In this document: one piece after another, positions 12,773 through 57,027 of the stretch
How the letters are laid out: every line of letters starts with the position of its first letter
How positions within the stretch are numbered: position 1 is the first letter of the stretch
Assembly (NCBI RefSeq): GCF_024648885.1
Contig: NZ_JANBBF010000015.1
Location: forward strand, 1-64,000
From: Prauserella salsuginis
GTDB lineage: Bacteria; Actinomycetota; Actinomycetes; Mycobacteriales; Pseudonocardiaceae
Direction of reading: 5' to 3'
DNA length: 64,000 nt
The notes under the pieces: model-generated
What the model saw: the letters and a program-made list of their open reading frames with translations, nothing else
The model's database searches: none
Told to the model about the DNA's origin: nothing
Program-made: the position numbers and the translations under genes

Positions 12773-13672
12773 ATGTCCGTTTCCGAAACACCCGGCGACT
12801 CCGCCGACCAGCAGCCCGCACCGTACGGCTCCCCCGCCGGCCCGACAGGCGATCACGGCGGCCGCGCACCCGAGCGGAAGAAGGTGCGCATCCACCATCT
12901 GCGGCAGTGGAAGGAAGCCCGGCAGCCGTGGCCGATGCTGACGGCCTACGACATGTACACGGCGAAGCTGTTCGACGAAGCGGGCATTCCGGTACTGCTC
13001 GTCGGCGACTCGGCAGCCAACAACGTCTTCGGCTACGACACGTCGCTGCCGGTCACGGTCGAGGAGCTGCTGCCGCTCGTCCGGGCCGTCTCGAGCGCGG
13101 CCACCCACGCGCTCGTCGTGGCCGACCTGCCGTTCGGCTCGTACCAGGTGTCGGTCGAGCAGGCCGTGGCCACGGCGGTGCGGTTCATGAAGGAGGGCCG
13201 CGCCCACGCCGTCAAGCTGGAAGGCGGGCGCCGGTTCGCCCCGCACGTCGAGGCGATCACGGCAGCGGGTGTGCCGGTGATGGGCCACATCGGGTTCACG
13301 CCGCAGTCGGAGCACACGCTCGGCGGCTACCGGGTGCAGGGCCGCGGCGAGGCAGGTGTCGAGCTGCTGGAGGACGCGCTCGCGCTGCAGGACGCCGGGG
13401 CGTTCTCCGTGGTGATGGAAATGGTGCCGGGGGAGGCCGCACGGCAGGTGACCCGCAAGCTGGCGATCCCGACCGTCGGCATCGGCGCCGGCCCGGAGTG
13501 CGACGCACAGGTGCTCGTGTGGCAGGACATGGCGGGGCTGCGGACCGGCGGGGCGCCGCGGTTCGTCAAGCGCTACGCCGACGTCGCGGGCGAGCTCACC
13601 CGCGCCGCCCAGGAGTTCGCCGCCGACGTCCGCGGCGGGCAGTTCCCGGCCGCAGAGCACACGTTCGACTAG
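12773..13672 (+). CDS. panB: 3-methyl-2-oxobutanoate hydroxymethyltransferase
   Basis: First committed step of pantothenate and coenzyme A synthesis: adds a hydroxymethyl group from methylene-tetrahydrofolate to ketoisovalerate. The TIM-barrel enzyme starts after a 45-residue flexible N-terminus rich in Pro, Gly and Ser. Hallmarks are [41 protein letters not shown] and [17 protein letters not shown]. Length 299 residues, slightly above the usual 265-280 because of the N-terminal extension. GGAAGGA lies about 13 bases before the ATG. Single gene; position near glnA2 and Hip1 is conserved with mycobacteria. Confidence 0.95.
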
Positions 13673-13693: not shown

Positions 13694-14488
13694 TCACGGG
13701 AGAACGGCCGAGAGTTCACCGTGGGCTGCCACGAGGGACGGTCCGTACCACGTCAGGTACCGGCCGGAGACGAGGACGTACGGCACGCCGGGGAACGCGT
13801 CGGGGCCGTCGCCGTCGGTGAACTCCCACGGTTCGTCAGGCAGTACGAGCAGGTCCGCCTCGCCGTCGGCGAACCGCTGCCGCAGCTGGTCGAGCTTGGG
13901 CCGGGGGTAACGCTCGTCGGCGCCGGTGTAGACGTGGTCGACACCGAGCCTGCGCAGGACGTCACCACCGAAGGTGTCGCGACCCAGCACCACCCACGGC
14001 TTGCGCCACACCGGCACGACCGCACGCGCCCGCACCGGCCGGGGTTCCGTCAGCCACAGCCGTTCGGCCTCCGCCAGCCACGCCGGAACGCCATCGGCCG
14101 GTGTTCCGGCGCAGCCGGCGAGCGGTCCCGTCAACAGTGCCCGCAGCGAGGCGAGCGCGGCGGGCACCGTCGCGGGCGCCTCCATCACCCACACCGGGAT
14201 CCCGGCGTCGCGGAGCGCCTGCACGTCCTGTGGCCGGTTCTCCTCGGCGTTGGCGAGTACGAGGTCGGGGCGCAGTTCGGCAGCGGCGCCGGCCGTCGGA
14301 TACTTCGAGCCACCGACCCGCGGGACATCCAGGTCCGGCGGGTGCGTGCAGTAGTCCGTCGCGCCGACGATCAGACCCGGCGTCGTGTACTCGACGGCCT
14401 CGGTCAGTGCCGGCACGAGCGAGACGACCCGTCGCGGCGGGTCCGGCAACGGCACATCGGCGCCGAGGTCGTCGGTGAACGTCGTCAT
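13694..14488 (-). CDS. Cytosolic helical-backbone metal receptor (BtuF/FecB-like fold)
   Basis: A 264-residue protein matching the periplasmic-binding fold used for cobalamin, haem and metal chelates: RVVSLVPALTEAVEY, GATDYCTHPP, LRPDLVLANAEENRPQDV and LRDAGIPVWV are typical. It has no signal peptide or lipobox, so it should stay in the cytosol and is unlikely to serve an ABC importer. The ATG at 14488 is chosen over an in-frame GTG at 14527 because homologous sequence starts there. It is divergent from a CooC/MinD-type ATPase, suggesting a shared cofactor or metal-related task. The function is unknown. Confidence 0.75.
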   Translation of the reverse strand: MTTFTDDLGADVPLPDPPRRVVSLVPALTEAVEYTTPGLIVGATDYCTHPPDLDVPRVGGSKYPTAGAAAELRPDLVLANAEENRPQDVQALRDAGIPVWVMEAPATVPAALASLRALLTGPLAGCAGTPADGVPAWLAEAERLWLTEPRPVRARAVVPVWRKPWVVLGRDTFGGDVLRRLGVDHVYTGADERYPRPKLDQLRQRFADGEADLLVLPDEPWEFTDGDGPDAFPGVPYVLVSGRYLTWYGPSLVAAHGELSAVLP

Positions 14489-15580: not shown

Positions 15581-15823
15581 TCAGTTCCTGCCACCGTCGC
15601 TGCCGCTGCCGTCGTCGTCGGCGGCGTCCCACTCGGCGTCGGCTTCGTCGGCGGCCTCGGTGCGCGCCCGCGCGATCTCGAGGGCTTGCCGGGCGGTGGC
15701 CTCATCCGGATACGGTCCGAGCAGGTCGATCGACCGCGACACTTCGCCGTGCTCGATCTCTCCGGTGCGGGTGTTGTACCACCAGCCAGACGGCGGATTC
15801 GGGTCCTTCTTGCGCCAGCCCAT
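15581..15823 (-). CDS. Small conserved-looking hypothetical protein
   Basis: An 80-residue soluble protein beginning MGWRKKDPNPPSGWWYNTRT. The central GPYPDEATARQALEIARAR resembles a SPOR-like peptidoglycan-binding half-motif, and the last 20 residues are acidic and Gly/Ser-rich. It lies 24 bases after the last gene of the type IV secretion-like operon on the same strand, so it may be its final member. The ATG at 15823 is preferred over an upstream one at 15841 since the homologous-looking part starts there. No function is known. Confidence 0.6.
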   Translation of the reverse strand: MGWRKKDPNPPSGWWYNTRTGEIEHGEVSRSIDLLGPYPDEATARQALEIARARTEAADEADAEWDAADDDGSGSDGGRN

Positions 15824-15847: not shown

Positions 15848-16849
15848 TCACCTGCGAAAGCGGTAGGGAATCTCCGTCGGTTCGGCACCGGTCGGTCCGA
15901 ACACGGCCCCGTCTCCGTCGGCACCCTCGGCAGCCGACGCCCCGGCGCCGTCGGCCGGCATCTCGTCGAACCAGTCCCGCTGCGCGGCATCCGACCGTGC
16001 AGCATCCGGTTGTGCGGCGCCCGGTGGCGGGACCGCCGGGAACGAGCCGCTCGCCGTGACAGGCCCCGCCGCCGGGGGAACCTGCTGCGATGGCTGCGAC
16101 GGCTGCGGCGGTGACTGCGGCGGCTGGGCCGGCTGCGGTTGCCCAGCCGGCGACGCCGGTACGGCGGTGCCGGACGGCGGGGTCGGTGTCCCGGATTCCG
16201 CCGTGGGCGCCGACCCCTGCCCAGCCGATCCGGGTGGGGTCGATCCGGGTGCGGCGGCGGTGCCCGCCGACGGGGCGACGAAACCCGACGGCGGTGTCTC
16301 CCACACCGGTTGCGGGCCGATGTTCATGGGCGCAGCCTTCCCCTGCTGGGGGACGGCGGGCGCGGTGCGGGGACGACTCCCCTGCACCACGGGATCCAAA
16401 CAGGACACGAGCACGGTCACCGAATCGGGGTCGTCGACCTTCCGGCCGCTGCGTTCGCGGTAGACCATCTCGCCCTCGGAGTCGATCTCGACGAGGTAGC
16501 CGGCCTCGGCGAGCTGCTCCTCGTCGAGGTCCACGAGACGTTCGGGCCGCGAGGGAACGACCCGGTAGGCGGGCCAGTCCAGTCGCGCGTGGCCGTCGTG
16601 GAACTGGGCGAGCAGGTTCACCAGCTGTTGCTGCCACGGCAACGGCATGTCCTCGACGAGAGCGCGCGGCAGCACGACGTAACCGTCGGTGACGCCGGGC
16701 TGTTCCCGTCGCAGGTAGTCCGACAGCGGCGTGCTCGACGCGGGCGGCGCGTGCCGCGGGGCCGGCGGACGTGCCTGCATCGCGAACGGGTCGATCTGCG
16801 CGCTGCCGCGGCCCGCGTTCTTTCCGCGCTTACCCCACTTTTTGCCCAC
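15848..16849 (-). CDS. Unknown protein of the type IV secretion-like operon
   Basis: A 333-residue protein that I do not recognise. Residues 1-40 are very basic then Pro-rich; residues 45-150 form a folded-looking domain (DGYVVLPRALVEDMPLPWQ, AYRVVPSRPERLVDLDEEQL, SEGEMVYRERSGRKV); the remaining half is low-complexity, rich in Pro, Gln, Ala and Ser. No signal peptide or TM is visible, so it is probably cytosolic. The GTG at 16849 is set by GGAGGGT seven bases upstream. It follows the NlpC/P60 gene with a 17-base gap and is likely co-transcribed. It could be a scaffold, a chaperone or a secreted substrate; nothing decides between these. Confidence 0.75.
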   Translation of the reverse strand: MGKKWGKRGKNAGRGSAQIDPFAMQARPPAPRHAPPASSTPLSDYLRREQPGVTDGYVVLPRALVEDMPLPWQQQLVNLLAQFHDGHARLDWPAYRVVPSRPERLVDLDEEQLAEAGYLVEIDSEGEMVYRERSGRKVDDPDSVTVLVSCLDPVVQGSRPRTAPAVPQQGKAAPMNIGPQPVWETPPSGFVAPSAGTAAAPGSTPPGSAGQGSAPTAESGTPTPPSGTAVPASPAGQPQPAQPPQSPPQPSQPSQQVPPAAGPVTASGSFPAVPPPGAAQPDAARSDAAQRDWFDEMPADGAGASAAEGADGDGAVFGPTGAEPTEIPYRFRR

Positions 16850-16866
16850 GAGACACCCTCCTGCGT

Positions 16867-17868
16867 TCACACACCAGGCCGGACGGCCTGCGGGACGAGC
16901 TCACCCTCGTCCCACGACACGTCACGTACGTGCACCGGGACGCCGCTCTGCTGCGCCTCGACCATCTTGCCGTTCCCGAGGTACATCGCCACGTGGTGAA
17001 TGGTGCTCGGGTCGGCCGTATCGTACGCCCAGAACAGCAGGTCACCGGGTTGTGCCTGCTCCACCGGTAGCATCGAGCCCGCCTTGTACTGGTCGCGCGA
17101 CACCCGTGGAATGGTGATACCTGCGGCCTCGTAGGCACGCAACATGAGCCCGGAGCAATCGTACGAATCGGGCCCGGTGGCACCCCAGACGTACGGTTTG
17201 CCACGCTCGCCCATCGCGAAGTCGATCGCCTGCTGGACCGACGAGTTCGACGCCAGCACGACGTCCCCGCGGGCTTCGCCGCAGCCGCTCGCGTTGCGGA
17301 TCTCCCCGACGTTCTGCACGAGGTGGACCGCCATCGGTTCCCACTCGTGGTATCGGTCGGGGAACGCCGACCGCTCGACGGCCTGCGCCGCCTCGCCCGG
17401 GCGCATGTGCTGCCAGCCGGGCACGTCTTCGAGGACGTCGTAGAACTTGTTGACCTGGTACGGCGGGTTGGTGACCTGCTCGGGCGTGCCCCAGCCCATC
17501 GACGGGCGCATCTGGAAGATGCCCAGCGAGTCGCGGTCGCCGTAGTTCAGGTTCTTCAGCCGCGACTCGGTCATGCCCGCCTGAATGGCGATCTGCCACG
17601 CCCGGGGCGACATGCCACGTTCCTTGCCGATCTTGATGATCAGCGATGTGATCTCGCGCTGCTCACCGTCGAGGGACTCGGCGTCGGCCGCACCGTTGCC
17701 GGCCTGGCCCGGCCTGGTCGGCCCGATGGCGGCATCACACGACAGTTCCGTCACGTCGCCGCTCATGGCCTGCTGCCGGGACCCGTCGATGACCGTGATC
17801 AGCCCGACCGCCAGCACCACCGTGAGTGCCGCCGCCATCACACACCCGAACAGCAATCCCCCGCGCAC
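16867..17868 (-). CDS. Membrane-anchored muramidase-like / NlpC-P60 peptidoglycan hydrolase (VirB1-like)
   Basis: A 333-residue wall hydrolase. One N-terminal membrane segment (residues 4-26) exports or anchors it. Residues about 60-190 resemble a lytic-transglycosylase/lysozyme-like domain (TESRLKNLNYGDRDSLGIFQM with a candidate catalytic Glu). Residues about 205-333 are NlpC/P60: Cys in YDCSGLMLRAYEA and His in IHHVAMYLGNGKM. In type IV secretion systems of Gram-positive bacteria such a two-domain enzyme opens the wall for the channel. A GTG start lies three bases after the preceding stop, so translation is probably coupled. The same domain pair is known in conjugative elements such as Tn916 (family knowledge). 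Confidence 0.88.
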   Translation of the reverse strand: MRGGLLFGCVMAAALTVVLAVGLITVIDGSRQQAMSGDVTELSCDAAIGPTRPGQAGNGAADAESLDGEQREITSLIIKIGKERGMSPRAWQIAIQAGMTESRLKNLNYGDRDSLGIFQMRPSMGWGTPEQVTNPPYQVNKFYDVLEDVPGWQHMRPGEAAQAVERSAFPDRYHEWEPMAVHLVQNVGEIRNASGCGEARGDVVLASNSSVQQAIDFAMGERGKPYVWGATGPDSYDCSGLMLRAYEAAGITIPRVSRDQYKAGSMLPVEQAQPGDLLFWAYDTADPSTIHHVAMYLGNGKMVEAQQSGVPVHVRDVSWDEGELVPQAVRPGV

Positions 17869-17871
17869 GGC

Positions 17872-18489
17872 TTAGCCCACCCGGTTGTAGTCGGAGACGC
17901 GCCAGCCCTCTTCGGTCTTGATCACGGTGATGGACAGGTCCGGGCCGTCGGTGGCGATCCTCGCTTCGACCGAACGGGGATAGGACTCGCCTGCCTCGGC
18001 CTTACCCTCGACCTTCGTCGCCGGGATGTTCGCCGGGTCGACGCTGCGCATCACGGGCAGGAACTCGGCGGTGGTGTACGGGCGCAGACCGTCGAGCCAC
18101 GCGTCGGCGGTCGTGTCGTCGTCGTGGTCGACCCACGCTGTGGCCCACTGTTCGGCGACGCGCAGCGCTTGCGGGGCCGCCGGTGCCTCACTGGGAGTCT
18201 CACGCGGCTCGGTCAAGCGGGTGACCGGCGGCAGCCCGGAACCGCCGGAATCGCCGGAACCGTTCGACGCGCCGGGCTCGCCCGGCTGCGCGCTGCCGGA
18301 TTCGGACGTGGGCCGGGTCGCCCCGGAAGCCTGTCCGTCGGAAACCAGGCGAGGCACGACGATGCCGGCCGCGACGATCAGCGCCACGAACAGGATGATC
18401 GTGCCGACCAGATGTGACGGCGACCGCATCGGCCAGCTCCACAGGCGCCGGTAGATCGCCGCGCGGCCGCGGTTGGTGCGAATCGGCAT
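17872..18489 (-). CDS. VirB8/TcpC-like bitopic membrane protein
   Basis: A 205-residue protein with a basic cytosolic N-terminus, one TM at about residues 26-46, a Ser/Gly/Pro-rich linker, and a C-terminal domain of about 110 residues outside the membrane. The latter (ALRVAEQWATAWVDHDDD... ending EEGWRVSDYNRV) fits the NTF2-like fold of VirB8 and of the conjugation protein TcpC. It sits 12 bases after the VirB6-like gene and three bases before the wall hydrolase gene. Assignment rests on fold-like features and context rather than strong sequence identity. Confidence 0.72.
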   Translation of the reverse strand: MPIRTNRGRAAIYRRLWSWPMRSPSHLVGTIILFVALIVAAGIVVPRLVSDGQASGATRPTSESGSAQPGEPGASNGSGDSGGSGLPPVTRLTEPRETPSEAPAAPQALRVAEQWATAWVDHDDDTTADAWLDGLRPYTTAEFLPVMRSVDPANIPATKVEGKAEAGESYPRSVEARIATDGPDLSITVIKTEEGWRVSDYNRVG

Positions 18490-18501
18490 GTCCGCTCGCC
18501 C

Positions 18502-20580
18502 CTACCGCACCGCACGGTCGGTGTCGCGAACGTCGTCCGGGCGCACTTCGAGCCCGCGCGACGGCCGGTACAGCACGTACACGGGTTTGCCCGCGACCAG
18601 TTCACTGTCGGCGCGCCGCGGTTCCGGCGCGGCCGGTGCCGGTGCGGCAGGCGCGGGCGTCGGCACGGCCTGCGCACCGCCCTGACCACCGGTCCGCCCG
18701 GTGTCGAACGCTCCCGCAGGCTGGTTCATCCGCGACGGCACGACGAACGGATCCGGATCGTCGGCGCGGTCGATCCCGCGATCGGTCACCGGCGCCGTGT
18801 CGACCCGTCTGCTCGGCACCACCATCGGCTGCTGGTCGCCCGACCCACGGCTCGGCGGGGCCGTGTTGAACACCGGCGGTGCCGCGCCGCCGCCCGCGGG
18901 CAGCGCCGGGCTCGCCCCGCCGACCTGCTGGCGCGCACCCGGCCAGTGCGATGCCGGATGGGCACCGGTCTGCGGCCCGTCGAGCCGCTGGGCACTGGCG
19001 ATCGTCGCCTCGGGACGGAACCGGCCGCCCGCACCGGCGGCTCCGGCACCGCGGGTGGCCGCGCCACCCTCGGCCTCGTCGTCGTTCTTGACGGTCTGCC
19101 AGAACTCGTCCTGCGGGGTCGGCTCGGACGACTTCTTACGGAAGCGCGAGAACAGCCCGCCACCCTGGCTCGGCACGGCGGAACCCACGAGGCTGACCGA
19201 TGTCTCGACCATCTGCCACAGCCGCCGCGCCGGCCGGCCGACGACGAACATCATGATCGTCACCAGGCCCGCGATCGCCAGCTGCACGATCATGTCCATT
19301 CCGGATGCGGCGAAGATCGCCTGCAGCAGCAGCGCGTGGATACCGGCGAGCACCGACAGCACGAGCAGGTTGAACGCCACGCCGCCGATGACCCGGCCGA
19401 CCTTGCGCAGCACGTCGTGCTGCAGGATCGCGAGCAGGCCGATCAGCGGCGCGGTGAGCGTGAACAGCCGCACGAGGATCTGCGCCAACAGCACGGCCAG
19501 CTTGGCGACGAGCTGGAACAGCGAATACGCGAGACTCTGCAACATCGCCAGGAAGCCCGTGCCCGCGCGCGAGCCGTCCTCACCACTGAAGTAGCCACTC
19601 GAGGCCTGCAGCTCGCCTGCGATGCGTTCGAACTCGGCCTTCTTCTCGTTGATGACGTTCTCGTCGCCGTCATCGCCCGCCCTCATCTGGTCCCACGTGA
19701 ACGCCTGCGCGTCGAGCAGGTCGGGGCCGTACTCCTTGGCCTCCTCGTCCTGCTGGTCGTTGCCGAACGTGCCGCGCAGCCAGTTGTCGTAGACGACCTC
19801 CTCGTGCAGTTCGGTCGGCAGGATGTGCCGCACGACGCGGTCCTGTTCCTCGTCGACGAAACCGGCCTGGATGTTGGTGGTGGTCTGGACGATCGCGTGG
19901 TCGATCTCGTCGTGGTACTGCAGCAGGGCCAGCGAGGAGGCCGCCAGCCACAGACCGCCGATGGCGAACAGCGCCCGCTTACTCACCGTCGCGAGGTCGC
20001 CGCGCCAGATGTTGCGGAACAGGAAGATCGCCAGCAGCAGCGCCGCGAGCCCGAACAGCTGGGCGTAGACGTTGTTGTAGACCGCTTCCGCGCCCCGCGA
20101 GACGGCCTCGGTGAGCGGCTGGAGCACACCGCCGTCGAGCACCTCGTAATGCAGCGCGTTGGTCGCCCCCACGATGTTCTTGGCGACGTTGAACAGCTGG
20201 TTTCCGAGCCACGTGTCCACGGTCGTGCTCGGGTCGGTCATGCCGCCCATCACGCCGCTGTCGCAGTCGTGGACGTGCCAGACCATGCCGGCGTAGCTGT
20301 AGTCGGCGTAGGCGCTGCCGGCCTCGCCGTTGCCCTCCGGGGTGTCGATCGCGCCGACCATGCCGGAACCGGGCCGTTCCGGGTTCGGCGCCTCACAACC
20401 GGAGCCACCGGTCTGCGCCTGCGCGGGCGAGGCGAGCAACGCCTGGCACACCAGCACCGCGACCGTGGCCAGCATCGCCGGTCCGCGCCGGGCGACCTGC
20501 GGGCGGCCCGGTTGCCGGCGACGCGCACGCAGCCACACCCACGCGCACACCAGTGCGGCGAGCACCGTCATCGTGATCAT
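18502..20580 (-). CDS. VirB6/TrbL-like polytopic membrane protein
   Basis: A 692-residue protein. A short N-terminal hydrophobic stretch is followed by a second one ending in SPAQA (residues 35-56), an external Cys-containing segment, TM helices at about 160-180 and 195-215, an acidic external loop of about 110 residues, three to four TMs between 330 and 450, and a long Pro/Ala/Gly-rich cytosolic tail (460-692) with repeated VVPSR-type motifs. This architecture matches the inner-membrane channel subunit VirB6/TrbL. Its start overlaps the VirB4-like gene stop in ATGA (20577-20580), indicating coupled translation and a fixed ratio with the ATPase. Confidence 0.82.
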   Translation of the reverse strand: MITMTVLAALVCAWVWLRARRRQPGRPQVARRGPAMLATVAVLVCQALLASPAQAQTGGSGCEAPNPERPGSGMVGAIDTPEGNGEAGSAYADYSYAGMVWHVHDCDSGVMGGMTDPSTTVDTWLGNQLFNVAKNIVGATNALHYEVLDGGVLQPLTEAVSRGAEAVYNNVYAQLFGLAALLLAIFLFRNIWRGDLATVSKRALFAIGGLWLAASSLALLQYHDEIDHAIVQTTTNIQAGFVDEEQDRVVRHILPTELHEEVVYDNWLRGTFGNDQQDEEAKEYGPDLLDAQAFTWDQMRAGDDGDENVINEKKAEFERIAGELQASSGYFSGEDGSRAGTGFLAMLQSLAYSLFQLVAKLAVLLAQILVRLFTLTAPLIGLLAILQHDVLRKVGRVIGGVAFNLLVLSVLAGIHALLLQAIFAASGMDMIVQLAIAGLVTIMMFVVGRPARRLWQMVETSVSLVGSAVPSQGGGLFSRFRKKSSEPTPQDEFWQTVKNDDEAEGGAATRGAGAAGAGGRFRPEATIASAQRLDGPQTGAHPASHWPGARQQVGGASPALPAGGGAAPPVFNTAPPSRGSGDQQPMVVPSRRVDTAPVTDRGIDRADDPDPFVVPSRMNQPAGAFDTGRTGGQGGAQAVPTPAPAAPAPAAPEPRRADSELVAGKPVYVLYRPSRGLEVRPDDVRDTDRAVR

Positions 20581-23500
20581 GCGGCGTCCCTGCCGGTGCC
20601 GTTCTTGCCCCGGCCGCCGGCGCGGGCGGGCTCCTGCCCGCCGTCGGCGCCGGTGTCGCCGCCCTCGTCCACGCCGTCCTTGTCGAAGCCGCCCTCGTCG
20701 AAACGGCTGTCGTCGAAGCCGCCCTCGTCGAACGCGGTGTCGGACAGCAGTTGGTCCTCGGTGAGCCCGACCTCCAACTCGGCCTCGAGTTCGAGATCCT
20801 CCTCCGGCTCACGGCCGGGCGACGCCGGCACCGGCTCCGTCGGCGCCGAGCGTGACGGCGCCCGCTCCGCCGTCCGGTCCGCCTCACCGCCGTCGGCGGG
20901 TCGGCTCTCGACGGCCTGCGTATCGGCACCGGGCGGCTGCGCCGGCCGTTCGGGAGTCCCACCCGGCGTGGTGTCGAGGACATCACGCAGCTGCTGCAGG
21001 TGTGGTCCGGTGAAGTCGACACGGATGCGTTCCACACCGCCCGCACCGTCACCGAAGATGAACTGCCGCGGCTCACGGTCGCGTTCGGCCTCGCGCTGCC
21101 CGCCGGGACGGCGGCCGAGCGCGGACACGACCTGCTCGTAACCCGCGCCCACGGGCACCTTGAGCAGGCGCAGCGCGTCGGCCTGCGCCTCGTCGTCGTC
21201 GAGCCTGCCGACGAACACCGAGTCCAGCAGCGCGACGAAACCCTGGATCTTCAGGAAGTCCGCGGGGATCTGCGAGGACAACAGCACTCGGACGTTCCAC
21301 TTACGCGAGTCACGCGCGAACCGGTTCATCAGCACCCGGCCCGTCGGCACCTCCGACAGGAAGAACGCCTCGTCGATCCACACGCCCTTGCGCGCCGACT
21401 TGGGCTTGTCGTACACCGAGCGCGCCGTCAGCCACGCGGCGAGGTTCATCATCTCGACGCCCAGCGCTTCGGCGTCGGTCCAGTGCTCGCGGCCGACGCC
21501 CTCCTTCGGCAGGGTCAGCCCCGCCATGGTGAGCACGGTCAGCCGGTCGTCCCGCTGGTCGGTGTACGGATCGGCGTCGGCTTCCGGGATGAGCAGCGAC
21601 ATGCGTTCGCGCAGCTCGTCGAGGAAGTCGGCGACGACGACGGCGTGGTCGTGGTGCTCGCTGGCGTCACGCCGCAGCGCGTCGATGACCTGGCCGGGAT
21701 CGGCGTCGTGCCGTCCGCCGACCATGCGGACCGCACGCAGCAGCACGATGCGGGTCTGCGGCATGCGTGCGACGTCGTAAGGCAGCACACCGGTGAGCAC
21801 GTCCAGCACGAGCCGCCTGCGCGTCGCCCCGGCGAGGGCGCGTTCCCTGCGCCACGCGCGTTCCGGGTCCTCTTCATCCATGAAGTGCTCGAGCTGCGGC
21901 TCGGCGACGACGCGATACGGGTTGAGGATGCCGGGCTGGGCGTTGAGCAGGTTGATCGGCCGCGCATACGGACGCAGCTCGGGCAGCTCGCACAACCGCG
22001 ACAGCGGACCGGACGGGTCGAGAATGGTCCAGTGCGCGCCGGCGCGGAGCGTCTTGTAGACGATGCCACCGCCGAGGAACGACTTGCCGCCACCGAGACC
22101 GGCGACGATCGACGTCAGCCCGGAGCCGTCGCGGATCTCCTGCGCCATCCACGGGTCCCACGCGACGGGGCGGCGGGTGGCGGTGCAGGTCTCGCCGAGC
22201 AGGATGCCGCGGCGGTCGCCGACCTCGGCCGTAGCCGTGGGCACCGACGCGGCGGCCCAGACCACCGAACCGCGGCGCAGGTACGCCCCGGAGGCGAGCG
22301 CCTCACCGGGGATGAACTCCCTGGCCAGGGCATATTGCGCCTCAGGGTGTTCGATGGCGATCTTCGGCTTGTACAGGTCCAGCAGCTGCTGCGCGAGCTT
22401 GAGGGCCTCGCGTTCGCTGCTGCCCGAGACCGACATGCGCCACCACGAACGCACGCGCGTGGCGAGGGCGGTGAAGCCGGACGTCATCTCGTCGTCGACC
22501 TCGAGCACCCGCGAGGCCTGCCGGGCCAACGACTGCGGCGGTTCGAGTTCGTGCTCGTCGGTGTAGTGCTTGACCTGCGAGCGCACCTTGTTCATCTGCC
22601 GCTGCAGCTCGCCCGCCACCTCTTCGGGCCTGCGCACGTAGATGCGCGCGGACCACTCCACGGGCGCGGGCAGGCGGTCGGCGTGCTGCACCCACGGATC
22701 GTCGACCTCGGGGATCTGCAGGCCGTGCATCTGGCCGACCGTCAGCACGGCGACGTGACGCTTCACCCCGGCGTTCGATCCGGTACGGCCGCGCACCGTG
22801 ACGGTGGGCGCGTACGGATCGGCGTGGAAGTCGGCGGCGTCGGTGAAGCTGGCGAGGTCCTCGGGCTCCCAGGTCGACGTCGGCACGGCGGGCATCGTGC
22901 GCGGCGCGGGCAGCCCCAGCGAACACGAGCGGTGCATCAGCCAGGACATCTCGTCGGCGCTGACCGGCCTGCCTTCGAGGCCGGACGAGCCGATCACCCC
23001 GTCGAGGTGCTCGACCTCGGAGTCGAGGGCGGACAGCTCGGCGTCGACGGCTTCGGGGAGGATCTTGCGCAGCAGCGGCGCGGCACGTTCGACCGCGCGG
23101 TCCATGACGCGGCGGGTCTGGACCTGCACCCCCAGGTAGACCTCCTTCTCCGCCATCGACCGGCCCATCAGCTGCTGCTGCTCCCCGACGAGGTAGTCGT
23201 CGAAGGACGGCGCACCCGGCACGTCCGCGGGCCGGTCGTGGGCGTTGTGCACGTGCGCCTCGGCCCACATGCGAATCGGGTACGGGCGGGTGGTGACGCG
23301 CAGGTGCATCCACCGGCCCTGCAGCTCGGCGTACTGGCCCGCGATCGCCGCGATCAGGTCCTGTCGCTGGGAGTCGGACCGGAACGACCAGCGTTGGGGC
23401 GCGAGCCGGTACCAGGCGTACACCTCGTTGCCCGTGCGCAGCAGATGTCCGTCGATCGAGCGGGCGGCGATCGACGGCGTGTAGGTCGGGATCGCCTGTT

Positions 23501-23594
23501 CACCGGGCAGTCTGCGGCCCCGGCCGTCGGTCTTCGTCGACGGTGCCGGTTTCGCGGCGTTCCTGCTGGTGCCGCTTCGGTCGCGACCGAACAA
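20577..23594 (-). CDS. VirB4-like type IV secretion ATPase
   Basis: A 1,005-residue ATPase. The N-terminal half (residues 30-450) carries the membrane-associated domain of VirB4/TraC/ConE relatives; the RecA-like motor has Walker A GLGGGKSF (near residue 503) and Walker B KGVWIDEAFF (near 740), followed by VLLSSQIPADF, the sensor region typical of VirB4. The final 130 residues are a low-complexity acidic tail with pentapeptide repeats of DEGGF type. The start is a TTG at 23594, decided by the strong GGGAGGT seven bases upstream. It energises substrate passage or pilus handling in the membrane complex. It is distinct from FtsK/TraB-type conjugation motors of Streptomyces. Confidence 0.92.
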   Translation of the reverse strand: MFGRDRSGTSRNAAKPAPSTKTDGRGRRLPGEQAIPTYTPSIAARSIDGHLLRTGNEVYAWYRLAPQRWSFRSDSQRQDLIAAIAGQYAELQGRWMHLRVTTRPYPIRMWAEAHVHNAHDRPADVPGAPSFDDYLVGEQQQLMGRSMAEKEVYLGVQVQTRRVMDRAVERAAPLLRKILPEAVDAELSALDSEVEHLDGVIGSSGLEGRPVSADEMSWLMHRSCSLGLPAPRTMPAVPTSTWEPEDLASFTDAADFHADPYAPTVTVRGRTGSNAGVKRHVAVLTVGQMHGLQIPEVDDPWVQHADRLPAPVEWSARIYVRRPEEVAGELQRQMNKVRSQVKHYTDEHELEPPQSLARQASRVLEVDDEMTSGFTALATRVRSWWRMSVSGSSEREALKLAQQLLDLYKPKIAIEHPEAQYALAREFIPGEALASGAYLRRGSVVWAAASVPTATAEVGDRRGILLGETCTATRRPVAWDPWMAQEIRDGSGLTSIVAGLGGGKSFLGGGIVYKTLRAGAHWTILDPSGPLSRLCELPELRPYARPINLLNAQPGILNPYRVVAEPQLEHFMDEEDPERAWRRERALAGATRRRLVLDVLTGVLPYDVARMPQTRIVLLRAVRMVGGRHDADPGQVIDALRRDASEHHDHAVVVADFLDELRERMSLLIPEADADPYTDQRDDRLTVLTMAGLTLPKEGVGREHWTDAEALGVEMMNLAAWLTARSVYDKPKSARKGVWIDEAFFLSEVPTGRVLMNRFARDSRKWNVRVLLSSQIPADFLKIQGFVALLDSVFVGRLDDDEAQADALRLLKVPVGAGYEQVVSALGRRPGGQREAERDREPRQFIFGDGAGGVERIRVDFTGPHLQQLRDVLDTTPGGTPERPAQPPGADTQAVESRPADGGEADRTAERAPSRSAPTEPVPASPGREPEEDLELEAELEVGLTEDQLLSDTAFDEGGFDDSRFDEGGFDKDGVDEGGDTGADGGQEPARAGGRGKNGTGRDAA
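20655..20730 (-). repeat. Degenerate 15-bp repeats in the VirB4-like gene
   Basis: In-frame units of 15 bp encode DEGGF, DDSRF, DEGGF, DKDGV and DEGGD near the C-terminus. Identical 15-mers (GAAGCCGCCCTCGTC on the plus strand) recur 30 bases apart. The array lies in the acidic tail beyond the ATPase domain. Confidence 0.8.
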
Positions 23595-23597
23595 GGC

Positions 23598-24113
23598 CTA
23601 CCTCCCGACCGACGCCGGCATGCGGCCGGTGCGCCGGTGCGCTCGTGCTGTGCTGTCTGCCGACGGGCGTCCGGACGCCGGCCCGCCGGGCCGGACCGGA
23701 TACGCGCCCCCGCGGGGACGTGCCCCGCGAGTGCCGCGCTTGTGTTTCGGCAGGGGTCGCTCCGCCCTGACCTTGATCTTGCTCGCGCTGACGGCACCGC
23801 CGTCGGCACGGGTCTTCTCCCTCGGGCTATGCAACTCGCGCAACCACATCGCGAACACCGCCGAGAGCGGCCGCTCGTGCGTGATCTTCGCGGTGATCAT
23901 CCGAGTGATCGCGATGGCGAGGACGAACGCCCATGCGGTGCTGAAGAACCCGAAACCGATGCCCACCTGGCGTTCGATGCCCAGTATCACCAGGAACATC
24001 GGGATGCCGACGCCCCAGGCGACGTACCGCGCGCGCCACGGGAACGTCGCCTTCGGCGGGCCGAGCCAGACGGCGTCGACCCGGTAGATCTCGTCGTCGG
24101 TACGTATGCGCAC
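23598..24113 (-). CDS. VirB3/TcpE/PrgI-like small membrane protein
   Basis: A 171-residue protein with a polar N-terminus (DDEIYRVDAVWLGPPKATFP), two TMs at about residues 29-48 and 53-73, and a basic C-terminal tail of about 95 residues rich in Arg, Pro and Gly. This matches the small two-TM subunit encoded directly upstream of VirB4 in most type IV systems (VirB3, or TcpE/PrgI in Gram-positives). Three bases separate its stop from the TTG start of the ATPase gene, and the stop lies inside that gene's ribosome binding site. A GTG start is used. Confidence 0.75.
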   Translation of the reverse strand: MRIRTDDEIYRVDAVWLGPPKATFPWRARYVAWGVGIPMFLVILGIERQVGIGFGFFSTAWAFVLAIAITRMITAKITHERPLSAVFAMWLRELHSPREKTRADGGAVSASKIKVRAERPLPKHKRGTRGARPRGGAYPVRPGGPASGRPSADSTARAHRRTGRMPASVGR

Positions 24114-24128
24114 GTCCGCGAGCCCCGG

Positions 24129-24395
24129 TCAGCCTGTGAACAGGCCGGCGAGCCACTCGCCGACGTCGACACCGAGCCCGCTGACGGCGAGACCGATGAG
24201 CGCGAGGGCGATCACGACGCCCCCGAGCCTGCGCATCACGCCGGCGTTGTCGCCTTTGCCGCCACCCAGCCAGAGCAGCAGCAGCGCGACGGCGAGCAGC
24301 ACGAGCGGGACAATGTTGTCGAGGAGCCAGGTACGGACTCCTCCGGTGCCGAGCTCGCCTTGCTGCGCCAGAGCCGCAAGCGTCATCGTGGTCAT
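24129..24395 (-). CDS. Two-TM pilin-like small membrane protein (VirB2/TrbC-like topology)
   Basis: An 88-residue protein, first gene of the operon. A short N-terminus (TMTLAALAQQGELGTGG) is followed by TM1 at about 27-44, a basic/polar loop (GGGKGDNAGVMRRLGG) and TM2 at about 58-76. Size, two hydrophobic helices joined by a small positively charged cytosolic loop, and operon position match VirB2/TrbC pilins. Sequence similarity alone would not prove it. No long cleavable signal peptide is seen; cleavage after ALAQQ is conceivable. GGGAG six bases before the ATG supports the start. Confidence 0.7.
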   Translation of the reverse strand: MTTMTLAALAQQGELGTGGVRTWLLDNIVPLVLLAVALLLLWLGGGKGDNAGVMRRLGGVVIALALIGLAVSGLGVDVGEWLAGLFTG

Positions 24396-24426
24396 CGCCT
24401 ACTCCCGAGTGCCTGGAGTGTGGTGC

Positions 24427-24447
24427 CGGTACGGATGGTCCGTACCG
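24427..24447. promoter_or_regulatory. Strong inverted repeat before the type IV operon
   Basis: CGGTACGGA-TGG-TCCGTACCG is a perfect 9-bp inverted repeat with a three-base centre, 32 bases before the first start codon. If the promoter at 24483-24511 is right it lies in the 5' untranslated RNA. It could be an operator for a dimeric repressor or an RNA hairpin near the ribosome binding site. Confidence 0.55.
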
Positions 24448-24482
24448 CGCGGGTGGTCCAGCACTTCCCGTGTTCGAACAAC

Positions 24483-24511
24483 ATCATGGCGTGACGAGGT
24501 GTGGCGGTCAA
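24483..24511 (-). promoter_or_regulatory. Candidate promoter of the type IV operon
   Basis: On the minus strand TTGACC (24506-24511) and CATGAT (24483-24488) are 17 bases apart, matching 5/6 and 4/6 consensus bases. Transcription would start near 24476 and give a leader of about 80 nt containing the inverted repeat. Confidence 0.4.
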
Positions 24512-25000
24512 AGACCCGTACACCCGCAGCGCGACCCCGAAGGGAGGGTCCCGCCTCCGTGGGCGTCGCGCGTGTGCACACCCACCTCGTCCGACCTCCA
24601 TCATCGCTGCCCGAAGCTCCAGGGTTAACGGTGGCCACCCGGTTTTCCTAGTGTGCGGATGGCCTCACTCACACGCCAAGATCGACCTCACGCTGAGTTC
24701 CGCCGTACCCGGCCGTGTCACGGGATGCGCCGGCGCGACTAGTGAATCATGACCCATTCGGCCGCATCACAGCGCTCCACCGTGTAAAGGCCCTGTGTAG
24801 ACGTCCGAACCGGACGATCTGACCGATCCGGTGAAAACCGACCCCGTCGCGCCACTCAGTCCGCGCGGAGAACCACCGTAAGTGGTTTGGTCACCCGTTC
24901 GGGTCGGTTTCGACCACAGGGCGGTGCTTCAACCGGATGGCGGTGCGACCGCGACCGCCGGAACCGGGCCGGAGCGCGTTGCGGAGAGGCCGCGGGCGGC

Positions 25001-26621: not shown

Positions 26622-27878
26622 TCACCGAAGGTGGGACACGTCGTTGACGAGCCGCACACTGGCGTTGCCGTCCGGGTAGAAGTCGGCGATCGACAGCGAC
26701 GCCGGGTCGAGATGCAGGCGGAACAACAGCGACGCACCGGCGTCGAGCGCCAGTCGCAGCAGCAGTTTGATCGGCGTGACGTGGCTGACGACGACGACCG
26801 TCCGGCCCTGGTACTTCCGGAGCAGCTGCTCGTATGCCTGCTGAACGCGCACGTACACCGCGTCGAAGCTCTCGCCGTCCGGCGGCGGCACCGACGTGTC
26901 GCTCATCCACCGGCCGTGCACGTCCGGGTCGCGCTGCGAGGCCTCGGCGAACGTCAGCCCTTCCCATGCGCCGAAGTCCGTTTCCCGCAACGACTGCTGC
27001 GTCTCGACCCGCGCGCCGAGGGCCTCGGCCACGGCCTGTGCGGTCGCCGCAGCACGCGTGAGGGGTGACGAGACGACGACAGGGTCGACGTCACGAACAC
27101 TGTCCATTCCGGCCAGTCGTTTCGCCACGGCCTGCGCCTGCCACCGGCCCGTCTCGGTCAGCGCGACATCGCCGAGCCCGGAGTAGCGCCGGTCGACCGA
27201 CATCTCCGTCTGGCCGTGCCGGACGAGCAGCAGCCGCGTCGGTGTTCCCGTCGCGCCCGTCCACCCGGTCGGTGCGCGACCTGCGGACTCGACTGTCTGT
27301 GCCTCGACAGTCGGCGCGTCGGCGGACACCGTCGTGGCGGGTGTTGTCGGGGCGGGTGTGGTCGTGGCGGATGCCGCGGCCAGCGGCAGCGCGGTCTGTT
27401 CGGCCTCCGCTGCAGGCTCCTGCTCTCCGACGGGCTCAGTGCTGCCGACGGGCTCAGTGCTGCCGACGGCGGCCTGAGTGTCCATGGCCTCGTTGGCCAG
27501 CCGGTCGGCGTGAGAGTTCTTCGCGCGGGGAATCCACTCGTAGGTCACCCGCTGGAACCGGCCCGCGAGGTCACGCGCCTCGAGCGCGAGCGGCTGCAGC
27601 GCGGCGTTCTTGATCTTCCACCGACCGCACATCTGCTCGACGACCAGTTTCGAATCCATCTTGACGTCCACAGTGGACGCGCCGGTGGCGGCCGCGGCTT
27701 CGAGCCCCGCGACAAGACCGCTGTACTCGGCGACGTTGTTCGTGGCCGTCCCGATGCCGACCGCACGCTCTGCCAGCACCTCGCCGGTGTCGGCGTCCTT
27801 CACCACCGCGCCGTACCCGGCGGGCCCTGGATTGCCGCGCGAACCACCGTCCGCCTCGACGACGACACGTCTGCTCAC
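26622..27878 (-). CDS. Bifunctional RNase H-like / acid phosphatase protein
   Basis: A 418-residue fusion like M. tuberculosis Rv2228c. The N-terminal 135 residues are RNase HI-like (VVEADGGSRGNPGPAG, then VAEYSGLVAGLEAA, VKMDSKLVVEQM and the NSHADRLANEAMD end) and should cut RNA in RNA-DNA hybrids. A Thr/Ala/Pro-rich linker of about 75 residues contains a VGSTEP duplication. The C-terminal 200 residues are a histidine phosphatase (LLVRHGQTEMSVDRRYSG, later VVVVSHVTPIKLL), the CobC-like half. The GTG start overlaps the preceding gene stop in GTGA (27875-27878), so translation is coupled to the zinc-ribbon gene. Confidence 0.93.
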   Translation of the reverse strand: MSRRVVVEADGGSRGNPGPAGYGAVVKDADTGEVLAERAVGIGTATNNVAEYSGLVAGLEAAAATGASTVDVKMDSKLVVEQMCGRWKIKNAALQPLALEARDLAGRFQRVTYEWIPRAKNSHADRLANEAMDTQAAVGSTEPVGSTEPVGEQEPAAEAEQTALPLAAASATTTPAPTTPATTVSADAPTVEAQTVESAGRAPTGWTGATGTPTRLLLVRHGQTEMSVDRRYSGLGDVALTETGRWQAQAVAKRLAGMDSVRDVDPVVVSSPLTRAAATAQAVAEALGARVETQQSLRETDFGAWEGLTFAEASQRDPDVHGRWMSDTSVPPPDGESFDAVYVRVQQAYEQLLRKYQGRTVVVVSHVTPIKLLLRLALDAGASLLFRLHLDPASLSIADFYPDGNASVRLVNDVSHLR

Positions 27879-28612
27879 AGGCCCGACTCCCCGGTACGGA
27901 CCAGGATCGCGCCACAGTTCTCGCACGTGATGACGTCGTCTTCGGCCGCGTTCTTGATGTCCGACAGCTGACTGCGGTCGAGTTCCAGCTTGCACGCGCC
28001 GCACTGGCGCGAGCGCAGCAGCCCGGCACCGATACCCCGCTGTTCACGCACGCGGTTGTACGTCTTGAGCAGAGCTTCCGGGAACTTCGGCACGAGCGCG
28101 GCACGATCGGCGTCGCGCCGCGCCTGAGTTGCGTTGAGATCGGCGAGCACCTCGTCGCGGCGCGTCACGGCGTCCTCGAGGTCCTGCTCCGCCTTGTCGA
28201 CCTCGGCCGCCGCGCGCTGTACCTCGATGTCGGCCGCCTCACGGCGTTCCATCAGCTCGAGCTGATCGTCCTCGAGGACCTGCTGCCTGCGCGAGAGCGT
28301 CTCCAGCTCGTGCTCCAGTTCGGTGAGCTGCTTCGCCCCGGCCGAACCGGACTCCATGAGCTTGCGGTCTCGGTCCGCGCGGGCGCGCACGGACTCGACC
28401 TCGCGTTCCTGCCGCGTCACCTCACGTTCCAGATCGGATGCCGATGTCTGCGCGTTGACGAGCGCATCACGCTTGTCCCGCAGGGTCTTCTCGATACCCT
28501 CGATCTCGGCCAGCTCCGGCAGGTTCCGGCGCCGGTGGGCGACACGTGCGAGCTCCGCGTCCACTTCGGCGAGGTCCAGCAACTCGCGTTGCAGGGACGG
28601 GTCTGCCTTCAC
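27875..28612 (-). CDS. Coiled-coil protein with C4 zinc ribbon
   Basis: A 245-residue protein, the same length I recall for M. tuberculosis Rv2229c. Residues about 5-175 form a long antiparallel coiled coil rich in Glu, Arg and Leu; the C-terminus has a four-cysteine zinc ribbon, CGACKLEL and CENCGAIL. Such proteins probably bind nucleic acid or act as a scaffold; the biochemical role is unsettled. The GTG at 28612 is supported by GGGAG seven bases upstream. It overlaps both neighbours by four bases (Nif3 before, RNase H/phosphatase after), a conserved three-gene operon in actinobacteria. Confidence 0.92.
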
Positions 28613-29454
28613 TTCGTACTCCCGTTCGCTCGGACGTTCCACGGATCGGTGCACCGTGTGGAGACGTGAACCTCGACGTTACCCGCCTGCCCGATCACGT
28701 CGGCCGCTTGCCCGCACCACGGCCATTCGCTCGCCCAGTGCGTCAGACCGACCAACGCGGGGACCGCGCCGGGCTGCTCGAGATGCTCTCCAGCAGGGTG
28801 GTGCCGCAGGTCCGCCGTGACGTACGCGTCGACGCCCGCGGCCGTCGCCGTGTCGAGAAAACCGTCGCCCGCGCCGCCGGATACCGCCACGGTGCGGATC
28901 AGGCGGTCGGCGTCCCCCGCGCCGTACACGCCGGGGGCGGTGGCCGGCAGTGCCGCGCCGACGCGATCGACGAACGCGGCGAACGGTTCCGGTTCCGGCA
29001 GCACGGCGATGCGGCCGAGCCCGGTGTCGGCGCCGTCGACGTGCGGGACGAGTGGACGCTGGACGTCGAGTCCGATGGCCGCGGCGAGCGCGTCGGAGAC
29101 ACCGGGGCTGGCGGAATCAGCGTTGGTGTGCGCGCAGAACAGCGCCACGCCCTCGCGGATCATGCGGTGGACGAGCGAGCCCTTCGACGTGTCCGCTGGA
29201 ACGCCGTGCACCCCACGGAGCAGAAGCGGATGGTGGGCGACGATCAGCTGTGCACCGAGTTCCAGGGCCTCGTCGACGGTGGCGGCGACCGGGTCGACAC
29301 AGACCAGCACGCGGTCGACCCGGTCGGCCGGATCGCCGCACACGAGGCCGACCGCGTCCCACGACTCGGCGAGCTCGCGGGGATACGCCGTGTCCAGTGC
29401 GGCGACGACGTCGGCGACGGCCGGCGCGGGGGAGTTCGGACTGGTGGCGGGCAT
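28609..29454 (-). CDS. Nif3-like dinuclear metal centre protein
   Basis: A 281-residue member of the Nif3/YbgI (GTP cyclohydrolase I type 2-like) family. Metal-ligand segments visible are [21 protein letters not shown] and, near the end, [11 protein letters not shown]. Family members form hexamers with two metal ions per subunit; the substrate is not established. The ATG at 29454 follows a region of poor coding character, so upstream starts are rejected. First gene of the operon with the zinc-ribbon and RNase H/phosphatase genes, overlapping the next gene by four bases. Confidence 0.92.
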
Positions 29455-56362: not shown

Positions 56363-56372
56363 AATCGTGGCC

Positions 56373-56636
56373 ATGGAAACAGCGGCAGACTCGGTGGGGC
56401 TGCGTGAACTGCGGCAGAACGCCTCCGAGCTGGTCCGCCGGGTCGAGGCGGGCGGTGAGGTGACGATCACCGTTGCGGGCCGCCCGAGCGCACGCCTCGT
56501 GCCCATCGACGGCCCCCGCAGGTGGCGAACATACGACGACGTCGCGGACCTCTTCGACGGCACGGCCGACCCCGAGTGGGCTCGCGACCGCGATCTGATC
56601 GATCAGACGGTGCGCAACCCGTGGACAGACGAGTGA
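56373..56636 (+). CDS. Phd/YefM-type antitoxin
   Basis: An 87-residue antitoxin. The N-terminal half is the Phd DNA-binding dimer fold: VGLRELRQNASELVRRVEAG and VTITVAGRPSARLVPI. The C-terminal acidic/aromatic part (DDVADLFDGTADPEWARDRD) should wrap and inhibit the toxin. It has an overlapping palindromic operator and is followed by a PIN toxin gene. The ATG at 56373 is preferred; a GTG at 56367 is possible. Confidence 0.92.
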   Translation: METAADSVGLRELRQNASELVRRVEAGGEVTITVAGRPSARLVPIDGPRRWRTYDDVADLFDGTADPEWARDRDLIDQTVRNPWTDE

Positions 56637-56656
56637 GAACCGCCGAGTGAGAACCG
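56630..56656 (+). repeat. 13-bp direct repeat at the antitoxin-toxin junction
   Basis: CGAGTGAGAACCG occurs at 56630-56642 and again at 56644-56656. The first copy contains the antitoxin stop overlapping a GTG; the second contains the toxin start. Between them lies a five-codon frame, GTG AGA ACC GCC GAG TGA, whose stop overlaps the toxin GTG. Confidence 0.95.
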
Positions 56657-57027
56657 TCCTCGACACCGGCATCGTCATCGCCGCCGATGTCGAGCCGATC
56701 CCCGGCGAACTGGCGATCAGTGCCGCCACCGTGGCCGAGTTGCACTTCGGTGTGCTGGTCGCCCGCGACGAACACACCCGCGCCCACCGGTTGAAGCGGC
56801 TCGCCACGCTCGCCAAACGGTTCGACCCGCTGCCCGTCGACGACGCCGTCGCCGCCAGCTACGGCGAACTCGCCGCGGCCGTGGCCAGGTCCGGCCGGCA
56901 GCCGCGGGCCCGCACCATGGACCTGCTGATCGCCGCCACCGCACACGCCCACGACGCGCGTCTGGTGACCCGCAACCCGGCCGATTTCGCTGCGGTCGAC
57001 GGGCTCGTCGACGTCGCCACGGCCTGA
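56647..57027 (+). CDS. VapC-type PIN-domain toxin
   Basis: A 126-residue PIN-domain ribonuclease. Acidic metal ligands are visible as Asp in VLDTGIV (residue 5), Glu in TVAELHFG (near 31) and Asp in TMDLLIAATA (near 92), with an Asp in RNPADFAAV near 111. Such toxins cut specific RNAs when released from the antitoxin. The GTG start lies 10 bases after the antitoxin stop, separated by a 14-bp duplication that creates a short intervening frame. Pairing of a Phd-type antitoxin with a PIN toxin is common in actinobacteria. Confidence 0.92.
   Translation: MRTVLDTGIVIAADVEPIPGELAISAATVAELHFGVLVARDEHTRAHRLKRLATLAKRFDPLPVDDAVAASYGELAAAVARSGRQPRARTMDLLIAATAHAHDARLVTRNPADFAAVDGLVDVATA

Follow-up and report, generated by a model that had tools for sequence, protein, structure and literature searches.

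Deletion of the chromosomal cmdABCDEF cluster of Streptomyces coelicolor (SCO4126-4131) is reported to cause aberrant branching together with defects in sporulation and segregation, with deletion of cmdB alone, which encodes a VirB4-like protein, likewise reported to impair sporulation and segregation (PMC2782261). Transfer of the plasmid pQC542 is stated there, as data not shown, to be unaffected by loss of the cluster, and the authors of that report propose that the products assemble in the membrane as a complex that may be a type IV-like channel. Some type IV secretion systems (T4SSs) lack a coupling protein, with Bordetella Ptl and Brucella VirB given as examples, and the T4SSs of Patescibacteria are described as monoderm, mostly relaxase-less and thought to be co-opted (PMC12102498). 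Here we describe an operon of seven genes on the minus strand, at positions 15848-24395 of a 64,000-nucleotide stretch (the window) that forms the start of contig C8 in the 5.64 Mb draft genome of Prauserella salsuginis. The operon is core, single-copy, non-mobile and compact, and its nearest relatives are, as judged by sequence comparison, six-gene modules on actinobacterial linear plasmids.

Like this operon, the cmd cluster is chromosomal and of VirB4 type (PMC2782261), and by analogy it offers the best functional precedent. The likeness to the Patescibacteria systems is one of description, with the hosts and their biology unrelated (PMC12102498). Surveys of T4SSs report few in actinobacteria (PMC3158045, PMC3218068), a single VirB4-like gene is reported as conserved in three Frankia strains (PMC2266912), and one VirB4-like gene is reported among the genes of unknown function of Micromonospora lupini (PMC4182475). 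Every Streptomyces strain of one study is reported to have a defective integrative and conjugative element (ICE) at a central chromosomal position, a possible counterpart of the cmd-like locus (PMC9513070). Our literature searches found no paper on the operon in Pseudonocardiaceae, nor a described function for it, and screens for ICEs may class such loci as defective elements.

Gene content and conservation of the operon

The genes of the operon, from the first to the last, are:

24129..24395, minus strand: small protein with two hydrophobic stretches, 88 amino acids (aa); VirB2/pilin-like by position and topology
23598..24113, minus strand: VirB3-like membrane protein, 171 aa; placed by gene order beside VirB4, with a conserved N-terminal RTDDEIYRVDAVWLGPP motif
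20577..23594, minus strand: VirB4-type ATPase, 1005 aa, TTG start; Pfam AAA_10 (5.8e-19), TcpF-type ATPase (4.5e-19)
18502..20580, minus strand: VirB6-type polytopic membrane protein, 692 aa; NCBIfam CD3337_EF1877 (1.5e-10, under the curated cut-off)
17872..18489, minus strand: VirB8-like protein, 205 aa, one transmembrane (TM) helix and a C-terminal domain; by gene order, topology and predicted fold
16867..17868, minus strand: wall hydrolase, 333 aa, NlpC/P60 domain (NLPC_P60, 8.8e-26) and, by motif, a muramidase/SLT-like first domain
15848..16870, minus strand: cytoplasmic protein, family unassigned, 340 aa; conserved core at about residues 46-160 and a proline-rich tail

The intergenic distances are 15, 3, -4, 12, 3 and -4 bases, bearing out the seven tightly packed leftward genes of the original prediction, which had been made from the sequence of the window. 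Gene calling by codon usage recovers every one of them, placing the starts of the last two further downstream, and the G+C content across the operon (0.69-0.71) matches that of its flanks.

Within the Pseudonocardiaceae (f1 in our family coding), a 508-residue piece of VirB4 used as query found one strong copy, 65-100% identical, in 60 of 60 genomes; two of these have VirB4 in two pieces, and G027 and G030 show a second, weak match. The profile PF12846 matches 100 of 100 family genomes. A locus search of genome contigs confirmed 261 relatives among 280 stretches, of which 80 were kept, and L011 and L018 (runs of N), L033 (contig edge) and L071 (a 4.3 kb contig) were then left out. All seven genes are present in each of the 76 complete named loci that remained, with the six channel genes ordered on one strand, and because of this retention the seven-gene set is not a chance grouping. 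Gene loss in some species was considered and rejected, the apparent gaps being the runs of N, contig edge and short contig of the loci left out.

All seven genes are under purifying selection, with ratios of nonsynonymous to synonymous substitution rates (dN/dS) of 0 to 0.48 against eight Prauserella species. The surroundings also recur: among 79 gene-called loci, with flanks ending at 10 kb or at contig ends, the neighbouring gene 13694-14488 is found in 58, 26622-27806 in 56, 27875-28642 in 44, 28609-29454 in 41 and 12773-13672 in 36. Together with the single Pseudonocardiaceae clade described below, these counts strongly support the earlier suggestion of a domesticated, chromosomally fixed machine, and conservation at the same locus, a check proposed with that suggestion and run here within the family, was indeed found. 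Genes for a predicted secretion-type channel are present in all genomes examined from this large, filamentous actinomycete family.

The encoded proteins

Profile matches uphold three of the labels first given to these proteins, namely VirB4, VirB6 and NlpC/P60, whilst the VirB3, VirB8 and pilin labels had no significant match and the muramidase part stands by motif. The Walker A lysine and the Walker B DE are invariant across 28 VirB4 sequences, with the protein of the window 94% identical to that of Prauserella alba, and the CD3337_EF1877 profile is matched by 19 of 25 aligned VirB6 relatives (threshold 0.01). With a VirB4 bearing intact Walker motifs, a VirB6-type protein and a wall hydrolase, the operon has these three features of a monoderm T4SS.

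In two family genomes (G037 and G028), VirB4 carries in-frame inserts of 362 and 395 residues (L164:7256-11221 and L165:7596-11753) right after the Walker A lysine, with the boundaries GLGGGK / ALALDTPLPTP ... PTHN / SFLGG and a LAGLIDADG_3 domain. These are very likely inteins, and they split the two VirB4 matches found in two pieces.

Searches of Pfam and NCBIfam gave no significant profile match for the small two-TM, VirB3-like and VirB8-like proteins, and Pfam PrgI matched none of 28 VirB3-like members, the position and topology of which fit VirB3/PrgI. The 88-aa protein is found in all 76 complete loci at a median identity of 80%, and a pilin role is likely from gene order and topology. 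In the four closest species pairs, its gene shows a synonymous divergence (dS) of 0.06 to 0.10, far below the values of the neighbouring operon genes in those pairs. The AlphaFold2 model of the VirB8-like protein (predicted local distance difference test, pLDDT, 82) has a helix at residues 24-49, a disordered linker and a confident domain at 106-204 with helices first and four strands after them, an arrangement consistent with the VirB8/TcpC fold. Alignments of the VirB8-like and VirB6 proteins, compared by sequence with solved structures, gave no useful match.

The first domain of the hydrolase has no Pfam match; it is read as muramidase-like from its motif (E, GIFQ) and from an SLT domain that precedes NlpC/P60 in one plasmid relative. 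All the aligned hydrolases share the glutamate of this motif, and those that have the NlpC/P60 domain keep its cysteine. The second domain varies, being NlpC/P60 in the window, L034 and the plasmids H1 and H2, and M23 instead in the scanned members of families f3 and f52, whereas the hydrolase of plasmid NZ_CP096038.1 combines M23, SLT and NlpC/P60. Relatives in this NlpC/P60-M23 swap lie at L187:5286-6407, L180:13755-14915 and L201:19671-21269.

The cytoplasmic protein encoded at 15848-16870 has no Pfam or NCBIfam match, and the AlphaFold2 model of its core has a pLDDT of 78. Its profile labels no called gene in the plasmid or other-family modules read, nor in L162, a family genome read separately.

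Relatives on linear plasmids

A plasmid search found VirB4 relatives in 107 records, all less than 60% identical to the operon's. Nine hand-picked records of the 107 were surveyed for a neighbouring pump gene, seven of them opened (H1-H4, H6, H9 and H17) and H5 and H8 read by coordinates; all seven opened records are linear. On the linear plasmids NZ_CP050694.1, NZ_CP029542.1, NZ_CP080522.1 and NZ_CP096038.1, VirB4 is 34-43% identical to that of the operon. By profile, six genes in operon order are found in five of the seven opened plasmids (H1, H2, H4, H6 and H17), with five of six in H9, where VirB8 was not called, and four in H3. By accession, the order is that of NZ_CP050694.1, NZ_CP080522.1, NZ_CP029542.1 and two further records, with NZ_CP096038.1 showing five of six. 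The protein encoded at 15848-16870 is the chromosomal operon's extra, beyond this six-gene module.

The plasmid modules differ from the operon in what adjoins them. In eight of the nine plasmids (H1, H3, H4, H5, H6, H8, H9 and H17), VirB4 has an FtsK/SpoIIIE gene or a gene annotated as type IV coupling protein no more than 4 kb away, the coupling gene of H4 being recognised mainly by annotation (nothing in Pfam at 0.001; FtsK profile 1.4e-5). In H2 the one FtsK match is weak (2.5e-8) and lies about 9 kb from VirB4. The chromosomal operon thus shares the six-gene order of the plasmid module, but no FtsK-type ATPase adjoins it. The comparison suggests how a conjugation channel can persist without the DNA pump that adjoins its plasmid versions.

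Mobility genes at the locus and elsewhere in the genome

No relaxase, integrase or attachment sites were found bounding the locus, and no coupling ATPase of a monoderm T4SS was found at it. No tRNA was found at the locus. Clean repeats flanking it are absent too: in the best pair, the copies at 15622 and 30673 agree in 20 of 21 bases, and both fall within predicted coding sequence. With the genome's own integrase (the one query of the integrase search), MobF, Replic_Relax, second coupling protein and second VirB4 as single queries, no open reading frame of the window matched, and the whole-genome matches to PF02534 and PF08751 (E up to 1e-3) all lie on another contig. A relaxase or TraG gene with attachment sites around the locus, named in the original prediction as what would overturn it, was looked for, and none was found bounding the operon. 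The description of the system as being without relaxase or coupling protein holds at the locus and fails for the genome, with VirD4 and MobF on contig C2, and a TrwB/TraG-like coupling protein and Replic_Relax on contig C3.

On C2, at about 475-487 kb (L083:14900 to L084:7570), a tyrosine integrase, VirD4 and a MobF (TrwC) relaxase lie within about 12 kb and likely form a small integrated element; a profile of the operon's VirB4 type found no convincing VirB4 in 38.5 kb around it. On C3, at 252.7-263.3 kb (L203, C3:252754-263268), lies a second monoderm T4SS gene set, comprising a T4SS pilin, a weak TrbL match, PrgI, a CD1110-type VirB4, the TrwB/TraG-like coupling protein, Replic_Relax and an NlpC/P60 hydrolase 40.7% identical to that of the operon. 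The C2 and C3 sets each seem to be an independent element equipped with parts of its own; the other possibility first raised for the operon, that it is a conjugation module with its partners elsewhere, is therefore less likely.

Chromosomal relatives and VirB4 phylogeny

Related chromosomal loci occur in the families coded f3, f52 and f50 of the same taxonomic order, with VirB4 39-44% identical to that of the window. (We take f3 to be Micromonosporaceae, f2 Mycobacteriaceae and f21 Streptomycetaceae.) The six-gene set is found in the fully read f3 and f52 loci, one VirB8 by six-frame search alone, and f50 is known from VirB4. Unlike the Pseudonocardiaceae operon, four of seven f3 loci have an FtsK/EccC-like ATPase downstream of the six genes (L152:1851-4379, L153:1447-4368, L186:15425-17992 and L187:1374-3899). 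The Walker A region of the L152 ATPase reads GRSQAGRS, with R in place of the expected K.

A search across the class found VirB4 matches in 37 of 197 genomes, with the operon's type in both f3 genomes and absent from all 14 listed f2 genomes. A search across the taxonomic order matched 55 of 150 genomes, 19 of them Pseudonocardiaceae, with 75 non-matching genomes outside the listed rows. A further draw included two f2 genomes that have the six-gene module and, on the stretch fetched with it, an FtsK gene.

In a VirB4 tree of 67 rows, built by a quick method with Shimodaira-Hasegawa-like approximate likelihood ratio (SH-aLRT) support only and with L151, L183 and L184 contributing VirB4 only, the 19 Pseudonocardiaceae rows form one clade (99) with short branches, unlike the plasmid copies. 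This clade is nested in a larger one of 29 rows (100), which also takes in the seven plasmid rows along with two loci of f2 and one of f47, and f3, f52 and f50 form a separate clade (100). A single clade of the 31 f1, f3, f52 and f50 rows is rejected by the approximately unbiased test (p 1.7e-6). This result fits separate fixations, and plasmids leaving a chromosomal ancestor would break the clade too; long branches are present in the tree.

Proposed function and alternative explanations

With somewhat more confidence than doubt, we favour a reading in which the operon encodes an independently domesticated, non-conjugative envelope channel for export or for crossing the wall, placing it ahead of a cmd-like developmental role and, after that, of a borrowed mating channel. 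The operon shares an ancestor with the linear-plasmid transfer module, made up of six channel genes and usually an FtsK-type ATPase, and probably descends from that module. The six channel genes would have been fixed once on a Pseudonocardiaceae chromosome, without the adjoining pump gene, and the cytoplasmic protein encoded at 15848-16870 would have been added to them. The product would be a monoderm type IV secretion-type channel across membrane and wall. VirB4 would supply the power, either for assembly or for the passage of substrates; the conduit through the membrane would consist of the VirB6, VirB8-like, VirB3-like and small two-TM proteins, and the hydrolase would open the wall locally. 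Because no dedicated coupling ATPase lies at the locus, we infer that export, or wall or septum work, in mycelial growth is the most likely use, in which case substrates other than DNA would arrive by another route.

In favour of this reading, T4SSs that lack a coupling protein exist (PMC12102498), and a plasmid-FtsK profile had no match in the window and a single weak one in the 80 family loci (5.6e-4, near the edge of L003), though a genome-wide FtsK search was not made. Several points weigh against it. VirD4, the relaxase and the second coupling protein, encoded elsewhere in the genome, could act in trans, and the plasmids could instead derive from chromosomal copies. Furthermore, the VirB3, VirB8 and pilin labels, likely from gene order, topology and, for VirB8, predicted fold, are not supported by profiles.

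It is unlikely, in our assessment, that the operon is a developmental machine that moves the chromosome or other DNA at sporulation septa in the manner of cmdABCDEF. The sporulation and segregation defects of the cmdABCDEF and cmdB deletions, the VirB4-like nature of CmdB and the unaffected transfer of pQC542 (PMC2782261) are consistent with such a role, as is the presence of the operon's VirB4 type in f3 and its absence from the listed f2 genomes of the class draw; however, the module is present in f2 after all, with an FtsK gene, in the two genomes of the other draw, and the plasmid-FtsK profile found no such pump at the operon. In eight loci taken as Streptomyces cmd, their identity with SCO4126-4131 being assumed, VirB4 forms a distant, deep clade (100) apart from that of the operon. 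Profile alignment by hhalign paired the VirB4 proteins at 99% probability (2.7e-18), the next pair, the VirB3-like protein and a 252-aa protein, reaching 5% in a comparison made on small alignments without secondary structure, which weak homology may escape. Orthology of the other operon genes with cmd was considered and is unsupported, this 5% being the best pair, and these loci have no labelled hydrolase of the operon's type. Since they clearly share VirB4 alone with the operon, cmd is an analogue at most.

Less likely again is a host-encoded mating channel borrowed by elements that carry just VirD4 and a relaxase. The C2 element, with its integrase, VirD4 and MobF, may be of this kind, PF12846 matching only C8 and C3 in this genome and so giving no VirB4 on C2, and PF02534 (VirD4) is found in at least 41 of 100 Pseudonocardiaceae genomes, with the operon's VirB4 type in all examined. 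PF02534 is, however, equally common in f2 (at least 42 of 101 genomes), where PF12846 passes its cut-off in 12 of 101, and its frequency therefore does not track that of the operon. The C3 gene set could also serve in place of the operon. The PrgI-type VirB4 of C3 reaches just 29 bits against PF12846, and the coupling protein of C3 escapes PF02534. The PF02534 counts are therefore lower bounds, and these incomplete counts preclude counting elements free of VirB4; an attempt to recognise VirD4 elements without VirB4 from the 100 f1 and 101 f2 genomes was dropped for this reason.

That the operon is the remnant of a defective ICE, as might be supposed because no relaxase, integrase or coupling protein was found next to it, is very improbable. 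This is contradicted by the presence of the whole seven-gene set in each of the 76 complete loci, by dN/dS of at most 0.48 and by retained active-site motifs.

More tentatively than for the export or wall-crossing channel itself, we suggest that mycelial actinomycetes may have repeatedly and independently made conjugation channels core genes, the cases being those of the Pseudonocardiaceae, the f3/f52/f50 group and the Streptomyces-type operon. The Pseudonocardiaceae channel, pump-less at its locus, would be a dedicated mycelial export or wall-crossing machine. If so, the family possesses a family-wide secretion system without a recorded function.

Upstream region and neighbouring genes

The region 5' of the operon (24396-25000 of the window) is without called genes, and in most loci it usually spans about 380-1000 bases. 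It holds one further feature:

24483..24511, minus strand: putative sigma-70-like promoter, TTGACC-17-CATGAT, upstream of the operon; position derived from its 87-base distance to the first ATG

The pattern TTGACN-(16-18)-YAKGAT, devised after inspection of the upstream alignment, is present in 46 of 82 upstream regions, against a mean of 0.0 in simple shuffles. A second conserved upstream block lies around CGATGATGG, about 200 bases before the first ATG. Directly downstream of the operon, a small conserved gene (15581-15823) is present in 64 of the 76 complete loci. Further along the window, two neighbouring small genes at 56367-57027 resemble, by eye, an antitoxin and PIN-type toxin pair.

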